This document shows, in pieces, positions 36,142 through 47,498 of a DNA stretch of 64,000 nucleotides (the stretch's first letter is position 1; every line of letters begins with the position of its first letter). Under the pieces are notes generated by a model that was not told the origin of the DNA, searched no databases, and saw nothing but the letters and a program-made list of their open reading frames with translations. Made by a program: the position numbers and the translations under genes. The stretch is from Fodinicola acaciae (GTDB lineage Bacteria > Actinomycetota > Actinomycetes > Mycobacteriales > HKI-0501), in assembly GCF_010993745.1 (NCBI RefSeq), contig NZ_WOTN01000001.1, positions 1,367,235-1,431,234 on the forward strand, written 5' to 3'.

Positions 36142-36927
36142 CTACGACTCCGGGGTGTCGGTCGTGTTCTCCGCGGCGGTTGGCGCGTCGTCGTCCTTGG
36201 CCGGAGCGGGCTCGGTTGGCTCGGTCGTGTCTTCGCCGAGGATCTCCTGCAGCGCCGCCGTGCGGATCCGGCGGAAGGCGCGGCCGGCGCGCGTACGGTC
36301 CAGGATCGCGACCTCGAGCTGCTCGGCCTTGAGCTGGCGCGGCGAGCCGTTGTCGCCACCGACGCTGCCGAGCGCCTTCACCGCCAGCTTGACCGCGTCG
36401 GCCACCTCCAGGTCGAAGCTGTGGCCCTCCTTGAGCACCGCCGAGATGCCTTCCGGCTGTCCACCCATGGTGATGTAGCCGGGCTCGTCACCGACCGAGC
36501 CGTCATAGGTGATCCGGTAGAGCTCGTCGTCGGCCGGCGTCGCGCCGACCTGCGCCAGGCAGACCTCGACCTCCAACGGCTTGGTCTGCTCCAGAAACAG
36601 CGATCCGAGCGTCTGCGCGTATGCGTTGGCGAGGAACTTGCTCGTCACGTCGACCCGGTCGTAGTTGTAGCCGCGCACGTCGCAGAGCCGCACGCCGACC
36701 ATCCGCAGCTGCTCGAACTCGGCATAACGGCCGACCGCGGCGAACCCGATCCGGTCGTAGATCTCGGAGACCTTGTGCAGCGCCGAGGACAGGTTTTCGG
36801 CCACGAACAGTACGCCACCGGCGTAGCTCAGCACGACCACACTGCGGCCGCGCGCGATGCCTTTGCGCGCGTATTCCGAGCGGTCGCGCATGATCTGCTC
36901 GGGTGACGCGTAGAACTGCATGGCCAC
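36142..36927 (-). CDS. prcA: 20S proteasome alpha subunit PrcA
   Basis: A 261-residue alpha-type subunit forming the gated outer rings of the actinobacterial 20S proteasome. The N-terminal [25 protein letters not shown] is the gating segment with the H0 helix. The fold continues with [24 protein letters not shown] and a long acidic, Thr/Glu-rich tail typical of bacterial PrcA ([20 protein letters not shown]). It starts 35 nt after the prcB stop, in one transcript with prcB. Confidence 0.97.
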
Positions 36928-36962
36928 GGTTGTCTCGGCCCCTTCCGTCGATCTGCTGGGTT

Positions 36963-37796
36963 CTAACCCTTGTCGACGCGGCCGTCCACGACCGCGCGCG
37001 CCACCTCGGCGATGGCGTCCTCGTCGACCCGGCGCGCTCCGTCGATGTCGACCTGATAGACCACCGGATAGATCGCGCGACCGAGGTCGGGACCACCGGT
37101 GGCGGTGTCGTCGTCGGCCGCGTCGTACAACGCCTCGACGGCGATCCGGACCGCCTCGTCACCGGACAGGCCGTCCCGGTAGAGCTTCTTGAGCGAGCCG
37201 CGCGCGAAGATCGAGCCGGAGCCGACCGAGTGGAACTTCTGCTCCGGATACGGGCCGCCGGTCGGGTCGTACGAGAAGATGCGGCCGCTGCTGGCCGGGT
37301 CGGCGGCGTCCGGGTCGATGCCGGCGAACAGCGGCACCACCGCGAGCCCCTGCATGGCGGCGGCCAGGTTGCCGCGCACCATGTTGGCCAGCTTCACCGC
37401 CTTGCCGGACAGCGACAGCGTGACGCCTTCCATCTTCTCGAAGTGCTCCAGCTCGACCTGGAACAGCCGGACGAACTCCAGCGCCAGGCCAGCGCTGCCG
37501 GCGATGCCGACCACCGAGTATTCGTCGGCGCCGTAGACCTTCTGCATGTCGCGGTTGGCGATCATGTTGCCGGCGGTGGCGCGCCGGTCACCACCCATCA
37601 CGACGCCGCCGGCATATTGCAGCGCCACGATGGTGGTGCCGTGCGGGCTCAGCTCCGCCGCGCTGCCCGGCGGCAGCGGCCGCCGCCCGGGCAGCAGCTC
37701 CGGCGCCACGTTGCCGAGCAGTTCGGTGAACGACGAGGTGCCTGGCGTGCTGAAGAAATCCGGCAGGCGTCCGTACGACATCGGACCGGCAGCCAC
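36963..37796 (-). CDS. prcB: 20S proteasome beta subunit PrcB
   Basis: A 277-residue proteolytic subunit made as a precursor. A 53-residue propeptide precedes the catalytic Thr (T54 of [21 protein letters not shown]). The conserved Asp/Lys/Ser set of N-terminal-nucleophile hydrolases lies in [16 protein letters not shown] and GSAGLALE ... GSGSIFARG. Self-cleavage before T54 activates the chamber. It lies between pup and prcA on the same strand. Confidence 0.97.
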
Positions 37797-37870
37797 GTTG
37801 CTTGTCTCCTCACAGGTCAGGCAGGGAAATTCTCGTCGGTGACCATACCGGCAGCGGCCGGCACCGCGGC

Positions 37871-38077
37871 CTACTGGCCGCCTTTCTGCACGTAACCGCG
37901 GACGAACTCCTCGGCGTTCTCCTCCAGCACCGAGTCGATCTCGTCCAGCACGTCGTCGACGTCGTCGGAGAGCTTCTCGTGCCGCTCGGCCGCCTCCGGA
38001 CTCGGCTCCGGCGCCGGCGTCTCCTCGTCCTCAGTGCTCCGGCGGTGCTGCTGACCGCCACTTTCCCGCGTTGCCAT
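37871..38077 (-). CDS. pup: Prokaryotic ubiquitin-like protein Pup
   Basis: A 68-residue disordered modifier. Start at ATG 38077 gives the family N-terminus [10 protein letters not shown]. The central helix that binds the Mpa/ARC coiled coil is [27 protein letters not shown], and the C-terminus is GGQ. The final Gln means Dop must deamidate it to Glu before PafA can ligate it. It lies between dop and prcB. The longer frame to 38116 adds an N-terminus not found in the family. Confidence 0.96.
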
Positions 38078-38231
38078 CGGCGCTCCCGGTGTCGAGCGAA
38101 ACGTGCCTATGTCCAAACGATATCTCGCCGAACCGGCAGCGGCGCGCAGTCGCCATCGGCCACGGGCAAGAAATTCTTACGCTCTCAGCTTCATCACCGC
38201 TGGGTGATTTGCGACGGATGCCGGAACCAAC

Positions 38232-39755
38232 CTATTTCGGTGCGCCGGTGATCGTATCGATCAACTGCTCGGCGGTGTCGCACCGGTCGAGCAGGTCCTT
38301 GACGTGTGCCGCGGTGCCGCGCGTCGGCTCCATCATCGGCACGCGTACGAGCGACTCACGGCCGACGTCGAAGATCACCGAGTCCCAGCTCGCCGCGACC
38401 ACCGAGCCGCCGAACTTCTGCAGGCAGCGGCCGCGGAAGTACGCGCGCGTCTCTTCCGGCGGCGCGGTGGTCGCACTCAGCACCTGCTCCTCGGTCACCA
38501 GCCGCTCCACCGCACCACGCGCCACCAGCCGGTTGTAGAGACCCTTCTCCGGCCGTACGTCCGCATATTGCAGGTCGACCAGCTGCAGCCGCGAGGAGCC
38601 CCAGCCGAGCCGGTCACGGTCGCGATAACCCTGCAGCAGCCGCAGCTTGGCGACCCAGTCCAGCTCGCGGGAGCACTTCATCGGGTCGTCGCCGAGCCGC
38701 TCCAGCACCGATTCCCACCGGTTGAGCACGTCCAGCGTCTGCTCGTCGGCGTCGGTGCCGTAACGATCCTCGACGAACTTGCGCGCGCGCTGACAGTATT
38801 CGTGCTGGATCTGCAGCGCGGTCAACCGGCGCCCGTCGCGCATCCGCAGCTGGTGTTTGAGCGACACGTCGTGCGAGACGCGGTGCAGCTCGCCGACCGG
38901 CTCCGCGATGGCCAGGTCGTCCGGCAGGAATCTGGCCTCGATCATGGCCAGGACCAGCGAGGTCGTGCCGACCTTCAGGTACGTCGAGACCTCGCACAGG
39001 TTGGCGTCGCCGATGATCACGTGCAGCCGGCGGTATTTGTCCGCGTCGGCGTGCGGCTCGTCGCGCGTGTTGATGATCGGCCGCTTCAGCGTGGTCTCCA
39101 GGCCGACCTCGACCTCGAAGTAGTCGGCGCGCTGCGACAGCTGGAAACCGTCCTGCGAGCCGTCCTGGCCGATGCCGACCCGGCCGGCGCCGCAGATCAC
39201 CTGCCGGGTGACGAAGAACGGCGTGAGGTGCGCGACGATCTCGGCGAACGGCGTCTCGCGGCTGCACAGGTAGTTTTCGTGCGAGCCGTACGAGGCGCCC
39301 TTGTTGTCGGTGTTGTTCTTGTAGAGCTGCAGCGGCGGCGCGCCGGGGACCGTGCTGGCACGCTGTGCCGCCTCGGCCATCACCCGCTCACCGGCCTTGT
39401 CCCACAGCACGACGTCCAGCGGTGTCATGACCTCCGGCGTCGAATACTCCGGATGCGCGTGGTCGACATAGAGCCGAGCGCCGTTGGTCAGGATCAGGTT
39501 GGCCAGGCCCAGATCCTCGTCGGCCAGTGCCTCAGCCGGGTCGTACAGCGCGCCGCCGAAAGTGAAGCCGCGCGCGTCGCGCAGCGGCGACTCCTCCTCG
39601 TAGTCCCACCGGGTCCGCCGCTGCCGGGCCAGCTCCTCGCGGGAGCCGTACGCGTTGACGACCAGGGACGAGGTCACCATGGGGTTGGCCTGGGGCTGGC
39701 CGGGCACCGCGATGCCGTATTCGACCTCGGTGCCCATCACCCGTCGTGTTGTCAC
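38232..39755 (-). CDS. dop: Dop, Pup deamidase/depupylase
   Basis: A 507-residue PafA paralogue that deamidates Pup-GGQ and removes Pup from substrates. It has [13 protein letters not shown] (N-terminal Mg-ATP site), the catalytic Asp D98 in [33 protein letters not shown] and [13 protein letters not shown]. The Dop-specific loop after residue 30 ([22 protein letters not shown]) is present and absent from PafA. GTG 39755 is chosen because a -10-like TAGGCT lies exactly 7 nt upstream (leaderless); a TTG precedes it. pup follows 154 nt downstream. Confidence 0.96.
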
Positions 39756-39824
39756 CAACTCAGCCTAATGGCCTCGGCTGACAGGAGTGCCGTGGTGTGC
39801 GTGATCTGACCGTGCGGCCGGCGG

Positions 39825-39853
39825 CCATCTAGGCCGGCTTGTGTCCTAGATGG
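39825..39853. promoter_or_regulatory. 9-bp inverted repeat upstream of the second WYL regulator
   Basis: CCATCTAGG (39825-39833) and CCTAGATGG (39845-39853) form a perfect dyad with an 11-nt spacer between dop and the divergent WYL gene. Position and symmetry suggest an operator for that regulator, possibly touching the dop promoter as well. A terminator role is unlikely since no gene ends here. Confidence 0.6.
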
Positions 39854-39866
39854 CTGCGATGCTGGT

Positions 39867-40856
39867 GTGGTGACGGATACGCCTGGACGCCTGCTGAGCC
39901 TGTTGTCGCTGCTGCAGATGCCGCGTGAGTGGCCCGGCAGCGAACTCGCCGACCGACTCGGTGTCAGCACGCGTACGGTCCGGCGCGACATCGAACGGCT
40001 GCGCGACCTCGGCTATCCGGTCCGCGCGTCGATGGGGACGACCGGCGGATATCAGCTGGTCGCGGGCTCGGCTATGCCGCCGCTGCTGCTCGACGACGAG
40101 GAGGCGGTGGCCATCGCGGTCGGCCTGCGTACGGCGGCGCGTCAGCCGGTCGACGGCATCGAGGACGCGTCCGTACGCGCGTTGGGCAAGCTGTTGCAGG
40201 TGCTGCCGTCCCGCTTGCGGCATCGCGTACGCAACCTCGGCACCGCGACGCTCTCCTGGAACATGGACGGGCCGGTGATCGATCCAGAGGTGTTGGCCAC
40301 TGTCGCCGGCGCGGCGACCGCCAGCGAGCGGCTGCGGTTCGGGTACGTCGCGGGCGACGGCACCCAGACGCGCCGGTTCGTCGAGCCGCACCGGCTGGTC
40401 GCCGCCGGGCACCGCTGGTATCTGGTCGCGTACGACCTCGAGCGCGGCGACTGGCGGATCTTCCGGGTCGACCGGATCGCCCGGCCACAGCTGACCGGCG
40501 TGCGGACGCCACCGCGCGAGCTGCCGGCGACGGACGCGGTCGCGTACGTGCGCGACCGGATGTATGGCCTGCTGCCAACCTACAGGGCCGACGTCACGGT
40601 CCAGCTGCCGGCGGACGCGGTCATGCAGCGTTTCGGCGAACAGTTCGGAGACGTCACGCCGATCGACGAGCACAGCTGCCGCGTACGGTCGGCCGCCGAC
40701 ACCTTGGAGTGGCTGGCCTTCCGGTTCGTGCAGCTGGGATGCGAGTTCGAGGTGCACGGCCCGCCGGAGCTCGCCGAGCACCTGCGCCAACTCGGCGGGC
40801 GCGTGCTGCGCGGTGTCGGCGCGCAGATCTCCGGACACGAACTTCCACAGATCTGA
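39867..40856 (+). CDS. WYL-domain transcriptional regulator
   Basis: A 329-residue paralogue of the regulator at 3973-4938. It has an HTH_11 winged helix (SELADRLGVSTRTVRRDIERLRDLGYPVRA), a long linker, a WYL core (HRWYLVAYDLERGDWRIFRVDRI) and a WCX-like C-terminus. It starts at GTG 39867 (followed by a second GTG). It is divergent from dop and 70 nt upstream of an SDR on the same strand, the likely target. Confidence 0.9.
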   Translation: MVTDTPGRLLSLLSLLQMPREWPGSELADRLGVSTRTVRRDIERLRDLGYPVRASMGTTGGYQLVAGSAMPPLLLDDEEAVAIAVGLRTAARQPVDGIEDASVRALGKLLQVLPSRLRHRVRNLGTATLSWNMDGPVIDPEVLATVAGAATASERLRFGYVAGDGTQTRRFVEPHRLVAAGHRWYLVAYDLERGDWRIFRVDRIARPQLTGVRTPPRELPATDAVAYVRDRMYGLLPTYRADVTVQLPADAVMQRFGEQFGDVTPIDEHSCRVRSAADTLEWLAFRFVQLGCEFEVHGPPELAEHLRQLGGRVLRGVGAQISGHELPQI

Positions 40857-40889
40857 TGACGACACCTCACCCTCCGCTGCGGCAACCTG

Positions 40890-40911
40890 ACCTGGTCGTG
40901 ACGCAGACCAG
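40890..40911 (+). promoter_or_regulatory. Dyad CCTGGTC-N8-GACCAGG before the SDR, overlapping its SD
   Basis: Perfect 7-bp arms (40890-40896 and 40905-40911). The right arm runs into the AGGAGG (40909-40914) that serves the ATG at 40927. It could be an operator for the upstream WYL protein or an mRNA hairpin that partly hides the ribosome site. Confidence 0.4.
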
Positions 40912-40926
40912 GAGGACCTGACCACC

Positions 40927-41697
40927 ATGTTGCTGGAGAAGAAGAACGCGATCATCTACGGCGCCGGCGGATCGCTCGGCGCGGCGGTCGCGAAGAAGTT
41001 CGCCGCCGAGGGCGCGCGCGTGTTCCTGGCCGGGCGTACGAAGGAAACGCTCGCCGCGGTGGCCGCCGAGATCGGCGAGAAGGCCGAGGTCGACGTCGTC
41101 GACGCGCTGGACGAGCGCGCCATCGACGAGCACGCGGCGTCGGTCGTGGAGCGCGGCGGCAGCATCGACGTGTCGCTCAACCTGATCACCCGCGGCGACG
41201 TACAGGGCATCCCGCTGCTGGACATGAGCCCCGGTGACCTTGTCGAGTGCATCGTCAACGGCGTCACCGCCAACTTCCTCACCGCGCGCGCCGCCGGCCG
41301 GCAGATGGTCCGCCAGGGCCACGGCACCATCCTCGGCCTGAACAGCGGCTCGGCGCAGGGCAGCCCGATGATGGGTGGCACCGGCCTGGCCGACGCGGCC
41401 ACCGACACGCTGATCCGCAATCTGGCGATCGAGCTGGGACCGGCGGGCGTACGCGTGCTGGGCCTGTGGGTCGCCGGCGTGCCGGAGACACTGACGGTGG
41501 AGAAGCTCTCGAAGGTCAACGCCAACATCACCGCCGAGGCCGTACAGGGCATCCTGGACAACCTGGCCGGCATGCGGCTCACCAAACGCTCACCGCGGAT
41601 CGACGAGGTGGCCGCGACGATCGCCTTCCTCGCCTCCGACCAGGCCGCCGGCATCACCGGCACGATGGTCAACGTGACCTCGATGTTCACCAGCTGA
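40927..41697 (+). CDS. Atypical SDR lacking the Tyr-Lys pair
   Basis: A 256-residue SDR fold with cofactor motif IIYGAGGSLGAAVAKKF, a Ser in LGLNSGSAQ and a C-terminal ITGTMVNVTSMFTS. Where YxxxK is expected the sequence reads GGTGLADAATDTLIR, so both catalytic residues are missing. NNAG is also replaced by LNLITRG. It may bind NAD(P) without classical catalysis or use other residues. It has a good SD and probably shares regulation with the WYL gene. Confidence 0.85.
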   Translation: MLLEKKNAIIYGAGGSLGAAVAKKFAAEGARVFLAGRTKETLAAVAAEIGEKAEVDVVDALDERAIDEHAASVVERGGSIDVSLNLITRGDVQGIPLLDMSPGDLVECIVNGVTANFLTARAAGRQMVRQGHGTILGLNSGSAQGSPMMGGTGLADAATDTLIRNLAIELGPAGVRVLGLWVAGVPETLTVEKLSKVNANITAEAVQGILDNLAGMRLTKRSPRIDEVAATIAFLASDQAAGITGTMVNVTSMFTS

Positions 41698-41716
41698 TGG
41701 CGCGGTCGACACGTGG

Positions 41717-41752
41717 CCGAAGGCCTTCCTCGCGTTGGAGGAAGGCCTTCGG
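41717..41752. terminator. Bidirectional hairpin between convergent genes
   Basis: A perfect 15-bp stem (CCGAAGGCCTTCCTC at 41717-41731 with 41738-41752) and a 6-nt loop, between the SDR stop and the membrane-protein stop. No strong T-run follows. Confidence 0.75.
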
Positions 41753-41758
41753 TTCGGC

Positions 41759-42427
41759 TTACTTGACCAGAACCGGCGCCGGCGTCGTGGCGAACATGCC
41801 CTCCCGGCGGCGCCGGCGGACGTATCGCATGGTCCACAGGATCAGCAGGCCGATGACGGCGATGCCGGTCATCTGGGACAGGCCGGCCATCACGTCCACC
41901 GGCAGCAGATAGACCAGCGGGATGCGGACCGCCGCCTCGACCAGCAGCGTGCAACCCCAGACCAGCGACATGGTGCGGAAGGTCTGCCGGAAACGCGGTT
42001 CGGTGGCGTAGCGCCGGTCCATCTCGGCGACCTTCTCCGGCGTCCCGGCGGCGAACCGCCGAGCGCCGTAGTAGACCATCGGCTTGCCGAAGAAGCTGGT
42101 GACCAGGAAGATCGCGCCGACCAGGCTGGTGCCGAACGAGTCCTTCACCAGCAGGAAGCGCGCGTCGCCGGTCACGAACGTCATGGCCAGGCCGAAGACG
42201 AAGGTCGCCAGCATGAACACGGCGAAACCGTCCAGCTTCCGTGCCCTGACCGCGACGTAGAGCGTGCGTACGCCGGCCACCACCGAGCCGGCCAGCAGCG
42301 AGAGGTATTCGTCGAAGCCGAAAAACCGCAGGCCGTAGTAGGCGATGATCGGCAGGCCCACGTCCGCGATCAGGCCGATCGCCAGCTTCTTCATCGCTCG
42401 TTGCCGCGGTGCGGCGCTCTCGGTCAT
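41759..42427 (-). CDS. VC0807-family-like integral membrane protein
   Basis: A 222-residue protein with about five to six hydrophobic segments (IADVGLPIIAYYGLRFFGF, SLLAGSVVAGVRTLYVA, FAVFMLATFVFGLAMTFV, MSLVWGCTLLVEAAVRIPLVYL, MTGIAVIGLLILWTM) and a basic C-terminus. The pattern resembles the VC0807 group of uncharacterised membrane proteins. ATG 42427 has GGAGA upstream. A GATGTC-N4-GACATC dyad lies just before it. Function unknown. Confidence 0.75.
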   Translation of the reverse strand: MTESAAPRQRAMKKLAIGLIADVGLPIIAYYGLRFFGFDEYLSLLAGSVVAGVRTLYVAVRARKLDGFAVFMLATFVFGLAMTFVTGDARFLLVKDSFGTSLVGAIFLVTSFFGKPMVYYGARRFAAGTPEKVAEMDRRYATEPRFRQTFRTMSLVWGCTLLVEAAVRIPLVYLLPVDVMAGLSQMTGIAVIGLLILWTMRYVRRRRREGMFATTPAPVLVK

Positions 42428-42443
42428 CAAGGTCTCCCCATGA

Positions 42444-42459
42444 GATGTCGTCTGACATC
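42444..42459. promoter_or_regulatory. Dyad GATGTC-N4-GACATC upstream of the membrane protein
   Basis: A perfect 6-bp-arm repeat 17-32 nt upstream of the ATG at 42427, extended by TGA...TCA-like flanks. It is placed as an operator for an unlinked TetR- or GntR-type regulator. No adjacent regulator gene exists. Confidence 0.45.
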
Positions 42460-42641
42460 ACTGACACTATGGCCGTTATGCAGGCGTTTCTTCGGTCCGC
42501 GGGTGGGTACGCGAGGTTCCACCCTGGGGTGGAGGGGTCAACCCGACGCGCGTCCTTCACATGCCGGCCTTCGACAGGCAAAGATCCGGTCAAGTCCGGC
42601 CGGGTAGCGTGCGGTGACCCTGTCCCGCACCAGGAGGATCC

Positions 42642-43532
42642 ATGCCGCGCTGGCCGTACGCCGTCATGCTCGTCGCCGTAGCCGTGTTCACCAGCCTGCT
42701 CACCACCGGATCGGCCGCCACCGCTTCCGGAGGCCTGCCGGTACGCGGCGACCAGCTGCACGTGATGACGTTCAACCTCCGCTATGCCAGCACCACCACA
42801 CCGAACTCGTGGGCCGAGCGGCGGCCGGTGATGGCCAGCCTGCTGCGCCGCGAGCGGCCACACCTGATCGGCACGCAGGAGGGACTTTTCGAGCAGCTCA
42901 ACGACATCGGCGACGACCTCGGCTCGAGCTACCGGTCACTGGGCCTCGGCCGCGAAGGCGGGTCCAACGGCGAGTTCATGATGATCTTCTACGACTCCAG
43001 GCGACTGCGCGTGATGGCGTACGACCACTACTGGCTCTCGGACACTCCGCTGGTGATGGGGTCGAAGACCTGGGGCGGCTGCTGCGCGCGGATGGTCACC
43101 TGGGCTCGCTTCCTCGACCGGCGTACGCACAAGCAGTTCTACGCGATCAACAGCCACTTCGAGGCGTTCGACGCGGTCGCGCGGTCCAAGGCGGCTGACC
43201 TGGTGTTGCAGCGCGAGGCGCAGCTGGACCCGAAGCTGCCGGTGATCATGACCGCAGACTTCAACGAGGCCGGCAAGCCCGGCGAGACCGTCTACGACAA
43301 GCTGGTGACCAATGGTCCGTTCAGGGACAGCTGGGTCACCGCCGCGCGCCGGAGCCCGCTCTACGCGACCTTCCACGGTTATCGGCCGCTGGTCCCGGAC
43401 GGCGACCGGATCGACTGGATCCTCACCTCGCCGGGGATCACCACCTCGGCTGCACTGATCAACACCTACCAGCGCGGCGGCCAGTATCCCAGCGACCACC
43501 TGCCGGTGCAGTCAGCGATCACGCTGCACTAG
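42642..43532 (+). CDS. Secreted endonuclease/exonuclease/phosphatase-family protein
   Basis: A 296-residue EEP-fold phosphoesterase with an N-terminal signal peptide (WPYAVMLVAVAVFTSLLTTGSAATA). Catalytic motifs are VMTFNLRYAS (Asn), GTQEGLFEQL (metal Glu), INSHFEAFD (His), TADFNEAG (Asp/Asn) and DRIDWIL ... YPSDHLPV (Asp/His). It should act outside the cell on nucleic acids, phosphoinositides or related phosphodiesters. Its stop codon lies in a 28-bp palindrome. Confidence 0.92.
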   Translation: MPRWPYAVMLVAVAVFTSLLTTGSAATASGGLPVRGDQLHVMTFNLRYASTTTPNSWAERRPVMASLLRRERPHLIGTQEGLFEQLNDIGDDLGSSYRSLGLGREGGSNGEFMMIFYDSRRLRVMAYDHYWLSDTPLVMGSKTWGGCCARMVTWARFLDRRTHKQFYAINSHFEAFDAVARSKAADLVLQREAQLDPKLPVIMTADFNEAGKPGETVYDKLVTNGPFRDSWVTAARRSPLYATFHGYRPLVPDGDRIDWILTSPGITTSAALINTYQRGGQYPSDHLPVQSAITLH

Positions 43533-43556
43533 GGCCTGTTTCGAAACAGGCCCTAG
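43529..43556. terminator. 28-bp perfect palindrome containing both stop codons
   Basis: The half-site CTAGGGCCTGTTTC (43529-43542) is followed by its exact complement (43543-43556). TAG of the plus-strand phosphoesterase (43530-43532) and TAG of the minus-strand acyltransferase (43555-43553) are both inside. It should act as a compact bidirectional terminator. Confidence 0.7.
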
Positions 43557-44089
43557 GCGAGCAGCGAGTCGTCCGGACGGTCGGCGGCCTTGGACACCAC
43601 GTCGCCGTTGCGGTTGACCCAGCCGATCGGCCGCGCCGGGTTGCCGACGACGAGCCGGTGCGGCTCCACGTCCTTGGTCACCACGGCACCGGCGGCGACG
43701 AAGGCGTACTCCCCGATCTCCACGCCACACACGACCGTCACGCCGCCGCCGATGGTCGCGCCACGGCGTACGACCGTCGGCGACACCTTCCAGTCGTCCT
43801 TGGTGGCGCGCGGGTTGAGGTCGTTGGTGAAGACCGCGGACGGACCGACGAAGACCTCGTCCTCGAGCGTCACGCCGACATACACGGAGACGTTGTTCTG
43901 GATCTTGCAGCGGTCGCCGATGACCACGCCGGGATCGACGTAGACGTTGCGACCGAGGTTGCAGTCGCGGCCAACCTTGGCGCCGGACCGTACGTACGAC
44001 AGGTGCCAGACCTTCGTGCCGGCCCCGATCACGGCGCCGTCGTCGGCGGACGCGGTCGGATGGATGTACGCAGCCTCGGTCGTCGTCAT
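43553..44089 (-). CDS. Left-handed beta-helix acyltransferase
   Basis: A 178-residue hexapeptide-repeat transferase of the WlbB/WbbJ type: IHPTASADDGAVIGAGTKVW, GRDCNLGRNVYVDPGVVIGD, KIQNNVSVYVGVTLEDEVFV and GVEIGEYAFVAAGAVVTKDV form the helix coils. NDLNPRATKD and VVGNPARPIGWVNRNGD follow. Members N-acetylate UDP-amino sugars for cell-surface glycans. Start ATG 44089. It stands alone without other glycan genes, so its substrate is open. Confidence 0.88.
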   Translation of the reverse strand: MTTTEAAYIHPTASADDGAVIGAGTKVWHLSYVRSGAKVGRDCNLGRNVYVDPGVVIGDRCKIQNNVSVYVGVTLEDEVFVGPSAVFTNDLNPRATKDDWKVSPTVVRRGATIGGGVTVVCGVEIGEYAFVAAGAVVTKDVEPHRLVVGNPARPIGWVNRNGDVVSKAADRPDDSLLA

Positions 44090-44143
44090 GCCGCCATTGT
44101 CCAGAATCACCGCCGCGCGCCGGCAGCCAGGGCTTGCCGAGAT

Positions 44144-44177
44144 TTAGTTATGCGCATAACGTTATGCGCATAACTAA
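44144..44177. promoter_or_regulatory. 34-bp perfect palindrome made of two TTATGCGCATAA boxes
   Basis: TTAGTTATGCGCATAAC (44144-44160) is followed by its exact reverse complement (44161-44177). Each half also contains its own perfect dyad TTATGCGCATAA. It lies 14 nt upstream of the MarR-fusion ATG and is of the MarR operator type, so two dimers could bind side by side. Confidence 0.85.
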
Positions 44178-44190
44178 TTAAGGAGACGTC

Positions 44191-45051
44191 ATGGACTTCG
44201 CTCAGGCCGACGCACTCAACCAGGCCATCCGCATGCTGAGCCTGCGCCACCGCGCCAGAGCCGCCGAGCTGCTGGCGCCGCTGGGTCTGCACACCGGCCA
44301 GGAAGCGCTGCTGCTCCAGCTCGACCGGACCGGACCGATGATCCAGGCCCAGCTGAGCGAGGCACTTGGCTGCGAGCCGCCGAGCGTCACACTCATGACC
44401 CGTAAACTGGAGGCCAGTGGCCACATCAGCCGCAAACCCGCGCCGTCGGACAAGCGCGCCAGCATCGTCGAGCTGACCGACAGCGGCCGGGACCTCGTCG
44501 GCAAGGTCAAATGGCTGTGGCGGGTGCTGGCCGAGGAGACCATCGCCGGTCTGCCGGCCCAGACCGTCACCGAGCTCCCCCGCGTCCTGAACACCCTCAC
44601 GGCCAACGTCGACAACCGCGACCGAGAGCCGGCGATGGGTACGCCGGAGTGGATCCGCGGCCATCTCGATCAGATCGAGCGCACCGGGACCACCGACGGC
44701 GTCACCGTGAAGGGCCGTCCGACGGTGCTCCTGACCTACCGCGGCGCCAAGACCGGCAAAATCCGCCGGGCAACGCTCATGCGGGTCGAACACGACGGCC
44801 GATATGCGGCCGTCGCGTCGAAGGCCGGACTACCAACCAACCCGCGGTGGTACGCCAGCCTGCTCGCGCAGCCAGAGGTCAATCTCCAAGACGGCGTGGT
44901 CACCGGCGACTACCGGGCCCGTGAGGTGTTCGGCGACGAAAAGGCGCTCTGGTGGCGCCGCGCGGTCGACGCGTACCCCGACTATGCCGACTACCAGCGC
45001 TCAACCGACCGGCAGATCCCCGTTCTCGTACTCGAACCGAGGTCACGCTGA
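44191..45051 (+). CDS. MarR regulator fused to a deazaflavin-dependent nitroreductase domain
   Basis: A 286-residue two-domain protein. Residues 1-140 are a MarR winged helix ([53 protein letters not shown]). Residues 152-286 are a DDN-type F420-binding split barrel ([61 protein letters not shown]). No stop or frame break separates them. It may couple F420/redox state or a nitro-compound to DNA binding. AAGGAG precedes the ATG and a 34-bp palindrome lies upstream. The next gene overlaps its stop by 1 nt. Confidence 0.9.
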
Positions 45052-45644
45052 TGCACGAAAAGGTGTTCGCTCAGGCCTGGGACGACCCAGCCAATACGCG
45101 ATACGAGATGCGGCCGATCGACGTCAACGCCGTGTTGGCCGAGCGTTACGAGGTCAGCGAGCCGTTGGTCCTTACGCGAACGATGTTGTGGGACATCGAA
45201 GTGCGCAAGGCGCGGCGGCCGGACATCTACATCCCGCGAGTGGTGGCCGAAGGAAGCGCACAGGCGTGGGGAGGCGACGATACGTACGTCCGCAGGTCGT
45301 CCCAGCGTCTGTGGCTGGAGCCCCACCGGCACGGCCTGATCATCGAACAGACCCACCTCGACCACGCCAGCCAGACGGTCACCTTCATCGGCGCGGCCAG
45401 CCACCCCGGCCCCGACGGAGCACCTCTGCGGGCGACCACCGACCAACCGCTCTTCCATGTCGAGCACGCCGTCGGCGGCACCGAGGACCAGCCGCTGAAC
45501 CTGTGGCGTACGGTCCACCTCACCGCCGAGCCGGACCAGCGGATCGTCGACGTGTTCGCGCGCATCGACGAGGACCCGTGGCTGCCGATCTTCGTCGAGA
45601 TCTACGTCAGGGACGTGCTGCGCATCGGCCTGACCCGTCGCTGA
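45051..45644 (+). CDS. Conserved hypothetical protein coupled to the MarR-nitroreductase
   Basis: A 197-residue soluble protein whose ATG overlaps the previous stop (TGATG). It has no transmembrane segment. Repeated beta-strand-like stretches (GLIIEQTHLDHASQTVTFIG, LFHVEHAVGGTEDQPLNLWR) and a Trp/Pro-rich end (EDPWLPIFVEIYVRDVLRIG) are visible. I do not recognise the family. Translational coupling suggests it works with, or is regulated by, the MarR-nitroreductase. Confidence 0.7.
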   Translation: MHEKVFAQAWDDPANTRYEMRPIDVNAVLAERYEVSEPLVLTRTMLWDIEVRKARRPDIYIPRVVAEGSAQAWGGDDTYVRRSSQRLWLEPHRHGLIIEQTHLDHASQTVTFIGAASHPGPDGAPLRATTDQPLFHVEHAVGGTEDQPLNLWRTVHLTAEPDQRIVDVFARIDEDPWLPIFVEIYVRDVLRIGLTRR

Positions 45645-45649
45645 CAGCC

Positions 45650-45682
45650 AAACGCCTGACCGGCGGTGCCGGTCAGGCGTTT
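45650..45682. terminator. Bidirectional terminator between the hypothetical gene and arc
   Basis: A perfect 15-bp stem (AAACGCCTGACCGGC at 45650-45664 with 45668-45682) and a GGT loop, ending in TTT on one side and AAA on the other, between two convergent stop codons. Confidence 0.85.
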
Positions 45683-45695
45683 GCCGCGGTGCGTC

Positions 45696-47498
45696 CTACA
45701 GGTATTGGCCGGTGTTGGCGACGGTGTCGATCGACCGGCCGGCCTCGGCACCCTTGCTGCCGGTGACGAGCGTACGGATGTAGACGATCCGCTCACCCTT
45801 CTTGCCGGAGATCCGGGCCCAGTCGTCCGGGTTGGTGGTGTTGGGCAGGTCCTCGTTCTCCCGGAACTCGTCGACGCACGAGTCCATCAGGTGCTGCATC
45901 CGCAGGCCCTTGCCGCCGGTCAGCAGGAAGTCCTTGATGGCCATCTTCTTCGCGCGGTCCACGATGTTCTGGATCATCGCGCCGGAGTTGAAGTCCTTGA
46001 AGTAGAGCACTTCCTTGTCACCGTTGGCATAGGTGACCTCCAGGAACTTGTTTTCCTCCGACTCGGAGTACATCCGCTCGACCACCCGCTGGATCATCTC
46101 CTGCACGGTGGCCTGCCGGTCCTTGCCGTGCTCGGCCAGGTCGTCGGAGTGCAGCGGCACCTCGGTGGTGATGTATTTGGAGAAGATGTCCCTGGCCGCC
46201 TCGGCGTCCGGCCGCTCGATCTTGATCTTCACGTCCAGCCGGCCGGGCCGCAGGATGGCCGGGTCGATCATGTCCTCGCGGTTGGACGCGCCGATCACGA
46301 TCACGTTTTCCAAGCCCTCGACGCCGTCGATCTCCGACAGCAGCTGCGGGACGATCGTGTTCTCCACGTCGGAGGAGACACCGGAGCCACGCGTGCGGAA
46401 GATCGAGTCCATCTCGTCGAAGAACACGATCACCGGGGTGCCTTCGGAGGCCTTCTCCCTGGCGCGCTGGAACACCAGCCGGATGTGCCGCTCGGTCTCA
46501 CCGACGTACTTGTTGAGCAGCTCCGGGCCTTTGATGTTGAGGAAGTACGACTTGGTGTTGCGGTCGGCGGTCGGGTCCTCGCCGCGCACCTCGGCCACCT
46601 TCTTGGCCAGCGAGTTGGCCACCGCCTTGGCGATCAGCGTCTTGCCGCAGCCGGGCGGACCATAGAGCAGCACGCCCTTCGGCGGCCGCAGCTGGTGCTC
46701 GCGGAACAGGTCGGCGTGCAGGAACGGCAGCTCGACCGCGTCCCGGATCGCCTCGATCTGGCTGGACAGGCCACCGATGTCGGTGTAGTCGATGTCCGGC
46801 ACCTCTTCGAGGACCAGCTCCTCGACCTCGGACTTGGGGATCCGCTCGTACACGTAGCCGCTGCGGGTCTCCAGCAGCAACGCGTCACCGGCACGCAGCG
46901 GTGCCTCGGTCAGCGAGTCGGCCAGGTGGACGACGCGCTCCTCGTCGGCGCGGCCGACGACCAACGCGCGGTCGGCCAGACCGTCGGCGTTGTGCAGCAG
47001 CTCCTTGAGGCTCACCACCTCGCCGGCACGCTCGAAGCCGAGCGCCAGCACGACGTTGAGCGAGTCGTTGAGCAGGACCTCCTGGCCCTTGCGCAGCTCG
47101 TCGATCTCCACCGACGGCGACACCGCGACCCGCAGCTTGCGGCCACCGGTGAAGACGTCGACGGTGTTGTCGGCCTGCACCTCCAGCACCACGCCGAAAC
47201 CGCTCGGCGGCTGCGCCAGCCGGTCGATCTCCTCCTTGAGCTGGACGATCTGCTCGCGCGCGTCGCGCAAGGTCGACACCAGCTTCTCGTTTTGCTCACC
47301 GAGCCGCGCCACGTTGGCGTGGGCGGCGGCGAGCCGCTCCTCGATGCCTCGTACGTGCCTGGGGCCCTCGGTGAGCTTGCGGCGCAGCAGTGAGACCTCT
47401 TCCTGCAGGAAGCCGATCTGAGAGTTGAGGTCCTGCACCTCCTTCTCGTAGCGCGCAGCACGAGCCGAAGCGTTCTCCCGGTCATCGGACACGAGCAC
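45696..47498 (-). CDS. arc: ARC/Mpa proteasomal ATPase
   Basis: A 600-residue AAA+ unfoldase that recruits pupylated proteins and feeds them into the 20S proteasome. An N-terminal coiled coil that binds Pup (residues 15-95, [20 protein letters not shown]...) is followed by tandem OB domains and the AAA+ core, with Walker A GPPGCGKT near residue 280 and Walker [13 protein letters not shown]. The C-terminus GQYL is the docking tail for PrcA. It lies after trmI as in other actinobacteria, but dop is 6 kb away. Confidence 0.97.

Follow-up and report, generated by a model that had tools for sequence, protein, structure and literature searches.

MhqR of Staphylococcus aureus is described, in the excerpts available from two papers, as a MarR-type quinone-sensing repressor (PMC12893000, PMC6798810), and its alpha3-alpha4 loop is reported in the first of these to be allosteric. 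PutA, one of the so-called trigger enzymes, is reported in the accessible part of PMC8249747 to have the putA-putP spacer as its only binding site. Among F420H2-dependent reductases, the available sections of an F420 review present FDOR-A enzymes as rather active on quinones and state that the tuberculosis drugs pretomanid and delamanid are activated by Ddn (PMC8498797), which makes the control of DDN-family genes of wider interest. Here, in a window of 64,000 nucleotides from Fodinicola acaciae, we describe a gene that places an F420 enzyme inside a transcription factor. This MarR-DDN fusion is real and recurring, and it belongs to a group of actinomycete MarRs with one kind of operator, through which unlike putative quinone reductases appear to be joined as one exchangeable module.

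Architecture of the fusion protein

The fusion gene (44191..45051, + strand) starts with ATG and encodes 286 aa. Pfam places a MarR winged-helix domain (PF01047) on residues 39-90 (44305..44460, + strand; E 2.5e-12, 46.9 bits against a curated cut-off of 24.6) and a DDN/FDOR-A F420H2-dependent reductase domain (PF04075, F420H2_quin_red) on residues 154-283 (44650..45039, + strand; E 3.5e-39, 134.3 bits, curated cut-off 22), and NCBIfam adds a match to TIGR00026 (E 1.7e-29, 102.8 bits, cut-off 46.35). There is no internal stop, and the claim of an earlier note that a MarR and an F420-type reductase share a single uninterrupted frame is thus borne out. In a PDB sequence search the N-terminal half matched many MarR proteins, and the DDN half matched Rv1558 (7kl8; E 9.9e-51, residues 151-283). 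The structure model of the fusion (mean pLDDT 85.5, pTM 0.50) is confident for both domains, and Foldseek aligns it to F420-bound Rv1558 (7kl8, TMt 0.89) and to the MarR protein 3bpx (TMt 0.78).

The linker between the two domains (residues 140-150; 44608..44640, + strand) is modelled with pLDDT below 50 and varies among fusions, measuring by eye about 10 residues in the window's protein and more in the others, up to about 40. Because the linker is variable and poorly modelled, and given the pTM of 0.50, no fixed domain interface is predicted. Within the MarR half, Cys61 (codon 44371..44373, + strand) lies between model helices 52-59 and 63-75; it is kept in 49 of 54 related MarR loci and missing in 5.

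The F420 site of the enzyme half

Ddn positions named in the available part of PMC3267046 were mapped onto the fusion via an ungapped alignment with 3r5z, which we take as nfa18080 because the residue numbers in that part fit with an offset of 1. Of the 16 positions compared from this list, 11 are identical, namely K55, T56, R60, S78, K79, W88, Y130, Y133, Y136, R142, and I144, which correspond to K187, T188, R192, S210, K211, W220, Y262, Y265, Y268, R274, and I276 in fusion numbering. Those that differ are P63, Y65, A76, M87, and N91 of Ddn (T195, M197, V208, R219, and S223 in the fusion); by the same offset, R54 of Ddn, outside the 16 compared, corresponds to A186. At three of the differing positions the A, M, and V of the fusion are also found in 3r5z, a structure solved with F420.

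Across the 12 aligned fusions (Embleya left out), R192, S210, W220, Y265, Y268, R274, and I276 are invariant, while K187 is kept in 9 and replaced by R in 3, and Y262 is kept in 10 and replaced by F in 2. The position of N91 is S or G in the fusions, in contrast to Asn in most of the unfused DDNs aligned. F420-binding and active-site residues are therefore largely, not fully, retained, and the expectation that the reductase half carries an F420 site holds for most positions, seven of them invariant in the fusions aligned. CofD scores above its family cut-off in the window's genome; among 14 control genomes there are 6 matches, 3 of them above the cut-off. This genome contains 10 PF04075 matches. 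A 475-aa open frame contains another of these PF04075 domains (L003, G000:C2:564984-565370) and may encode a further multidomain DDN protein.

A tandem operator that accompanies the MarR half

Upstream of the gene, positions 44144..44177 form a perfect 34-bp palindrome, our proposed operator, whose 17-nt arms (44144-44160 and 44161-44177) are 100% complementary with no gap. It contains two abutting 14-nt dyads of the sequence GTTATGCGCATAAC, at 44147..44160 and 44161..44174. The palindrome is thus as the earlier note described it, but the abutting units are these 14-nt dyads, the 12-nt cores proposed before being 2 nt apart. An AAGGAG motif (44180-44185) starts 2 nt past the end of the palindrome, and the ATG follows 13 nt past it.

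In the 8.86-Mb genome, the 12-mer TTATGCGCATAA occurs only within these two dyads (the backward-pattern control gave 1 match per strand), and a degenerate tandem pattern was likewise found at one place only (control, 0). No further operator copy was found in the genome by the exact core or by the degenerate tandem pattern, and a single genomic place fits what would be expected for a self-regulator.

Within 110 nt before the MarR start, the pattern [AG]TTA-N6-TAA[CT] is present as two sites at 39 of the 54 MarR loci, as three at 8, and as one at 7. With a looser motif at least two dyads are seen upstream of 52 of the 54, so that the proposed operator has conserved counterparts; the exceptions are L025 and the fusion L018, which has a single dyad only. 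The spacing of neighboring sites is 14 nt in 34 cases and 15 nt in 21, and 23 of the 109 sites are exactly GTTATGCGCATAAC. This conserved inverted repeat near the gene's own start is a predicted site for a MarR dimer. Such dyads precede fused and unfused MarRs alike, which indicates that they go with the MarR half.

Fused and unfused relatives

A contig scan with the fusion as query yielded 145 stretches encoding a relative, of which the best 80, corresponding to 79 loci, were kept. Seventy-eight loci have a MarR that matches at 60% identity or more across 120 aa or more, and removal of 24 duplicates left 54 distinct MarR loci, comprising 13 fusions (window included) and 41 without an in-frame DDN; L092/L094 (genome G001, frame-shifted) and L154-L157 fall outside this MarR filter and were treated apart. 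Reading on from the MarR start gave 11 in-frame fusions of 296-330 aa (L011-L020 and L033), with 66-74% identity to the window's protein in the best segment. A twelfth, of 306 aa and 67% identity, lies on a 5.7-Mb plasmid record of Embleya, the sole one of 65 matching plasmid records with one place covering at least 80% of the query.

Among the 41 unfused loci, a DDN of more than 60% identity within 700 bp is present in three (L039, L130, and L135) and in none of the other 38. It is a separate gene behind the MarR in L039, where the two are a few nucleotides apart, and in L135. In L130 it is divergent from the MarR across the operator and is fused to a relative of ORF3, the gene downstream of the window's fusion, in a 356-aa frame (L130:352-1422), which makes a second, different fusion inside the MarR/operator module. 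A further candidate, L121, had looked like a MarR-DDN fusion in tblastn and was ruled out, its DDN being a separate 166-aa ORF.

This MarR group is narrow. At E ≤ 1e-30 the MarR half is found once per genome in 12 genomes (those of L011-L020, L033, and L039), and in a phylum-wide sample at E ≤ 1e-25 it is found in 3 of 396 genomes, the window's own and two at 43-45% identity. Among 297 genomes from the family of G399 (the genome that carries L012), at least 46 encode the MarR half with an identity of 61% or higher, and at least 9 of these have both halves in one open frame; these are lower bounds, the 297 genomes being drawn from a larger group with up to 8 candidates scored in each.

Fusions occur in Streptosporangiaceae, Thermomonosporaceae, Frankiaceae, Embleya, and the window's lineage. 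Resolution is poor in the MarR tree (56 rows), over which the fused rows are scattered (10 changes), and a single clade of fusions is at the edge of rejection (AU p 0.050), so that one old fusion with subsequent losses and several separate fusions would both fit. Among at least 38 unfused loci searched for DDN pieces behind the MarR, a clear one was found in L145 (48 aa, 85% identical to L018, out of the MarR frame) and weak ones in L132 (about 20 aa) and L048 (the DDN end), with E of about 1e-4 to 1e-2. Judging from these pieces, the DDN has thus gone at least once while MarR and operator were retained, and the switch seems not to need it.

Exchangeable reductases around the switch

The unfused loci are frequently associated with genes for a putative quinone reductase and a pump. 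A WrbA gene (>500 nt), often divergent, is found upstream at 28 of the 41, and a DHA2-type pump at 39 of the 41; for the fusions the corresponding counts are 1 of 12 and 5 of 12. These counts refer to loci with at least 1,400 nt upstream, leaving out the window (copy L002, with 1,041 nt upstream). The proteins were named from L021, and at the other loci by tblastn to the two L021 proteins. The L021 WrbA-type NAD(P)H:quinone oxidoreductase scores 159.5 bits for TIGR01755 (cut-off, 132.5). Since the L021 pump (TIGR00711, 211 bits; cut-off, 230) and the PIG3/QOR-like gene of L154 (TIGR02824, 129 bits; cut-off, 296.8) fall under their NCBIfam cut-offs, DHA2 and PIG3 are used here as superfamily-level names.

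In these divergons the unfused MarR is 71-84% identical to the window's and has the same tandem operator, whereas the reductase is WrbA (NAD(P)H-dependent, flavodoxin-like) in replacement of the fused F420 enzyme. The reductase partner thus differs from locus to locus (WrbA, DDN, or PIG3/QOR-like), and one MarR/operator switch seems to serve exchangeable reductases. The window's own locus contains neither WrbA nor the pump, and in many relatives the place of its divergent hexapeptide-repeat acyltransferase gene (43553..44089, - strand) is taken by wrbA or the pump gene. A WrbA relative of 59% identity lies about 1.4 Mb away in the same genome, preceded by no such operator. Since only 1 of the 12 fusions has WrbA and 5 have the pump, the link to quinone genes comes mainly from the unfused relatives. 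The difference in WrbA between fused (1 of 12) and unfused (28 of 41) loci has a Fisher p of 4.8e-4 if kinship is ignored, but the tree gave one independent pair on supported branches, and an association of fusion with lack of WrbA is not relied on here.

The fusion sits inside a Pup-proteasome cluster (36142-47498), in which genes for proteasome alpha, proteasome beta, Pup, and Dop occupy 36142-39737 and that for the proteasome ATPase occupies 45696-47498. Seven genes separate Dop from the ATPase, the fusion and ORF3 among them.

ORF3, a linked protein of unknown family

The start codon of ORF3 (45051..45644, + strand; 197 aa) overlaps the fusion's stop codon (TGATG), which makes translational coupling plausible. 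For the coupled unknown protein of the earlier note, the overlap and the linkage hold, and the coupling is plausible only. No match to ORF3 came from Pfam up to E 10, from NCBIfam up to E 0.1, or from a PDB profile search, and a single-sequence model (pLDDT 32.5) gave no fold. Relatives are rare, being found in 1 of 396 genomes of the phylum sample (the window's own) and in 5 of 341 genomes of the family of G421; none were found in phages. One plasmid record, Rhizobium bangladeshense p4, contains a relative at 42% identity (L122:3953-4588), annotated as hypothetical, which adjoins an MFS gene and is near genes for a dioxygenase (with a note on catechol metabolism), an SDR, and an aldehyde dehydrogenase. 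The match of this relative to TRAM_2 (E 0.081) is below the cut-off and was taken as chance.

All seven actinomycete copies of ORF3 that were found are near such dyads, and five of the seven are beside a MarR. In G001, of the window's genus, two dyads and a MarR come immediately before ORF3, without an intervening DDN, and MarR and ORF3 each have one frameshift in that assembly. L154-L156 show three dyads, a PIG3/QOR-like gene, and then ORF3, and in L154 and L155 a divergent MarR is 50-52% identical to the window's. L156 and L157 have dyads and ORF3 and no MarR within the 3.6 kb examined. In L156 the three operator-like dyads (L156:3060-3102) precede the QOR-like gene and ORF3, and a different contig of this genome (G626) encodes a MarR of 55% identity, so that control at a distance is possible. 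In L157 (L157:1489-2430), the apparent start of a PIG3/QOR-like reductase, with two dyads upstream, runs in frame into ORF3, apparently through an internal deletion.

Proposed function and alternatives

We consider it probable that the protein is a self-regulated repressor fused to a detoxifying enzyme under its control, and that its MarR half responds to a quinone-like or electrophilic compound. This proposal starts from what can be read in the sequence itself, namely the fusion, an operator that is unique in the genome, the retained F420-site residues, and the repeated linkage to putative quinone reductases. A dimer of the MarR half would occupy the two abutting dyads in the start region of its gene and would hold expression of the fusion and ORF3 low. 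Release would come from a quinone-like or electrophilic aromatic compound, which would either bind in the MarR pocket or modify Cys61 in the loop before the recognition helix, the reactivity of Cys61 being conjectural. Fusion and ORF3 would be made, the DDN half would reduce the compound with F420H2, and once the compound is cleared repression would return. Repression, ligand class, enzyme activity, and the roles of Cys61 and ORF3 are here what we infer. The enzyme half would act as effector, as one of several exchangeable quinone reductases tied to the MarR/operator pair, and the fusion would couple the amount of enzyme to that of repressor. Weighing against the proposal are the F420-site positions that differ from Ddn, the lack of WrbA and the pump at the window's own locus, the single dyad of L018, the dyads and ORF3 of L156 and L157 with no MarR beside them, and the five MarRs that have no Cys61.

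The earlier note had suggested a regulator that senses F420H2 redox state directly, such that the DDN half binds F420/F420H2, alters DNA binding by the MarR half, and thereby reads the F420H2/F420 ratio. Retention of most F420-site residues and recurrence of the fusion in 13 of 54 loci from several families, which suggests that the joining may have a use, would agree with this. However, 41 of the 54 loci have an unfused MarR behind the same kind of operator, 38 of them without a nearby DDN (at least 60% identity, 700 bp); the DDN can be a separate or a divergent gene and has left remnants behind unfused MarRs (clear in L145, weak in L132 and L048); and with this linker no fixed interface is predicted. 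Direct sensing of this kind is unsupported, and we regard it as improbable. The other suggestion of the note, that a reducible substrate is sensed, may hold. With the DDN seemingly dispensable, the linker variable and poorly modelled, and Cys61 kept in 49 of 54 loci, the MarR half is the likelier sensor and the DDN the enzyme under control. A related and rather unlikely variant is an enzyme-gated repressor, in which the DDN half reduces the compound bound by the MarR half of the same chain, so that occupancy depends on F420H2 and compound alike. If this were true, the cell would induce the locus only once the F420H2 supply falls behind, and the gene would report indirectly on F420 redox state.

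The joining may also have been nearly neutral, loss of a stop codon having united two cotranscribed genes whose halves work as before. In L039 such genes are still separate and adjacent, some linkers look by eye like tails of unfused MarRs (L019 versus L048), the DDN has been lost in places, and the tree leaves one versus several origins unsettled. Set against this are the presence of the fusion in 13 of 54 loci across several lineages and the kept active-site residues, and we judge this account unlikely, though with an appreciable chance of being right. A sequencing or assembly error that joined two genes, which the earlier note had named as a danger to its claim, fails as an explanation in view of the 12 other in-frame fusions in other records and has a negligible probability.

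The module suggests which class of ligand the MarR may bind and what a DDN-type enzyme may do, and it offers a first clue to the function of the ORF3 family.

Comparison with known systems

Among the matches listed by a full-text literature search that covers few subscription papers, we found no description of a MarR-DDN fusion, and the whole word "MarR" is absent from the F420 review (PMC8498797). For the operator core, the matches listed contained two papers, seen in excerpt, on herpesvirus mRNA and on ParB.

Compared with Ddn and the other FDOR-A (mena)quinone reductases, as presented in the accessible parts of PMC3267046 and PMC8498797, and with Rv1558 (7kl8), the enzyme half shares the fold and most of the F420-site residues, with 58% identity to Rv1558 in the Foldseek alignment. 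Unlike these enzymes, it forms the C-terminal half of a putative DNA-binding protein.

With MhqR the locus would share a MarR repressor, proposed here too, at a quinone-detoxification locus, and by count of model helices Cys61 is predicted to lie in the same alpha3-alpha4 loop. The grounds for likening the MarR half to MhqR-type quinone sensing are the gene neighbors and the conservation of Cys61 only. In the excerpts available on MhqR no enzyme fusion is described and the quinone is bound in a pocket (PMC12893000), whereas here ligand and mechanism are proposed only.

The layout, an enzyme and a DNA-binding domain on one polypeptide, is that of the trigger enzymes such as PutA (available part of PMC8249747), and the operator of the fusion is likewise the only one in its genome, although the DNA-binding and enzyme families are others. 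The substrate of the enzyme is reported there to switch the role of PutA; for the fusion, the indirect evidence is against such a switch. As far as the literature search reaches, an F420 enzyme in a trigger-enzyme layout appears to be new.
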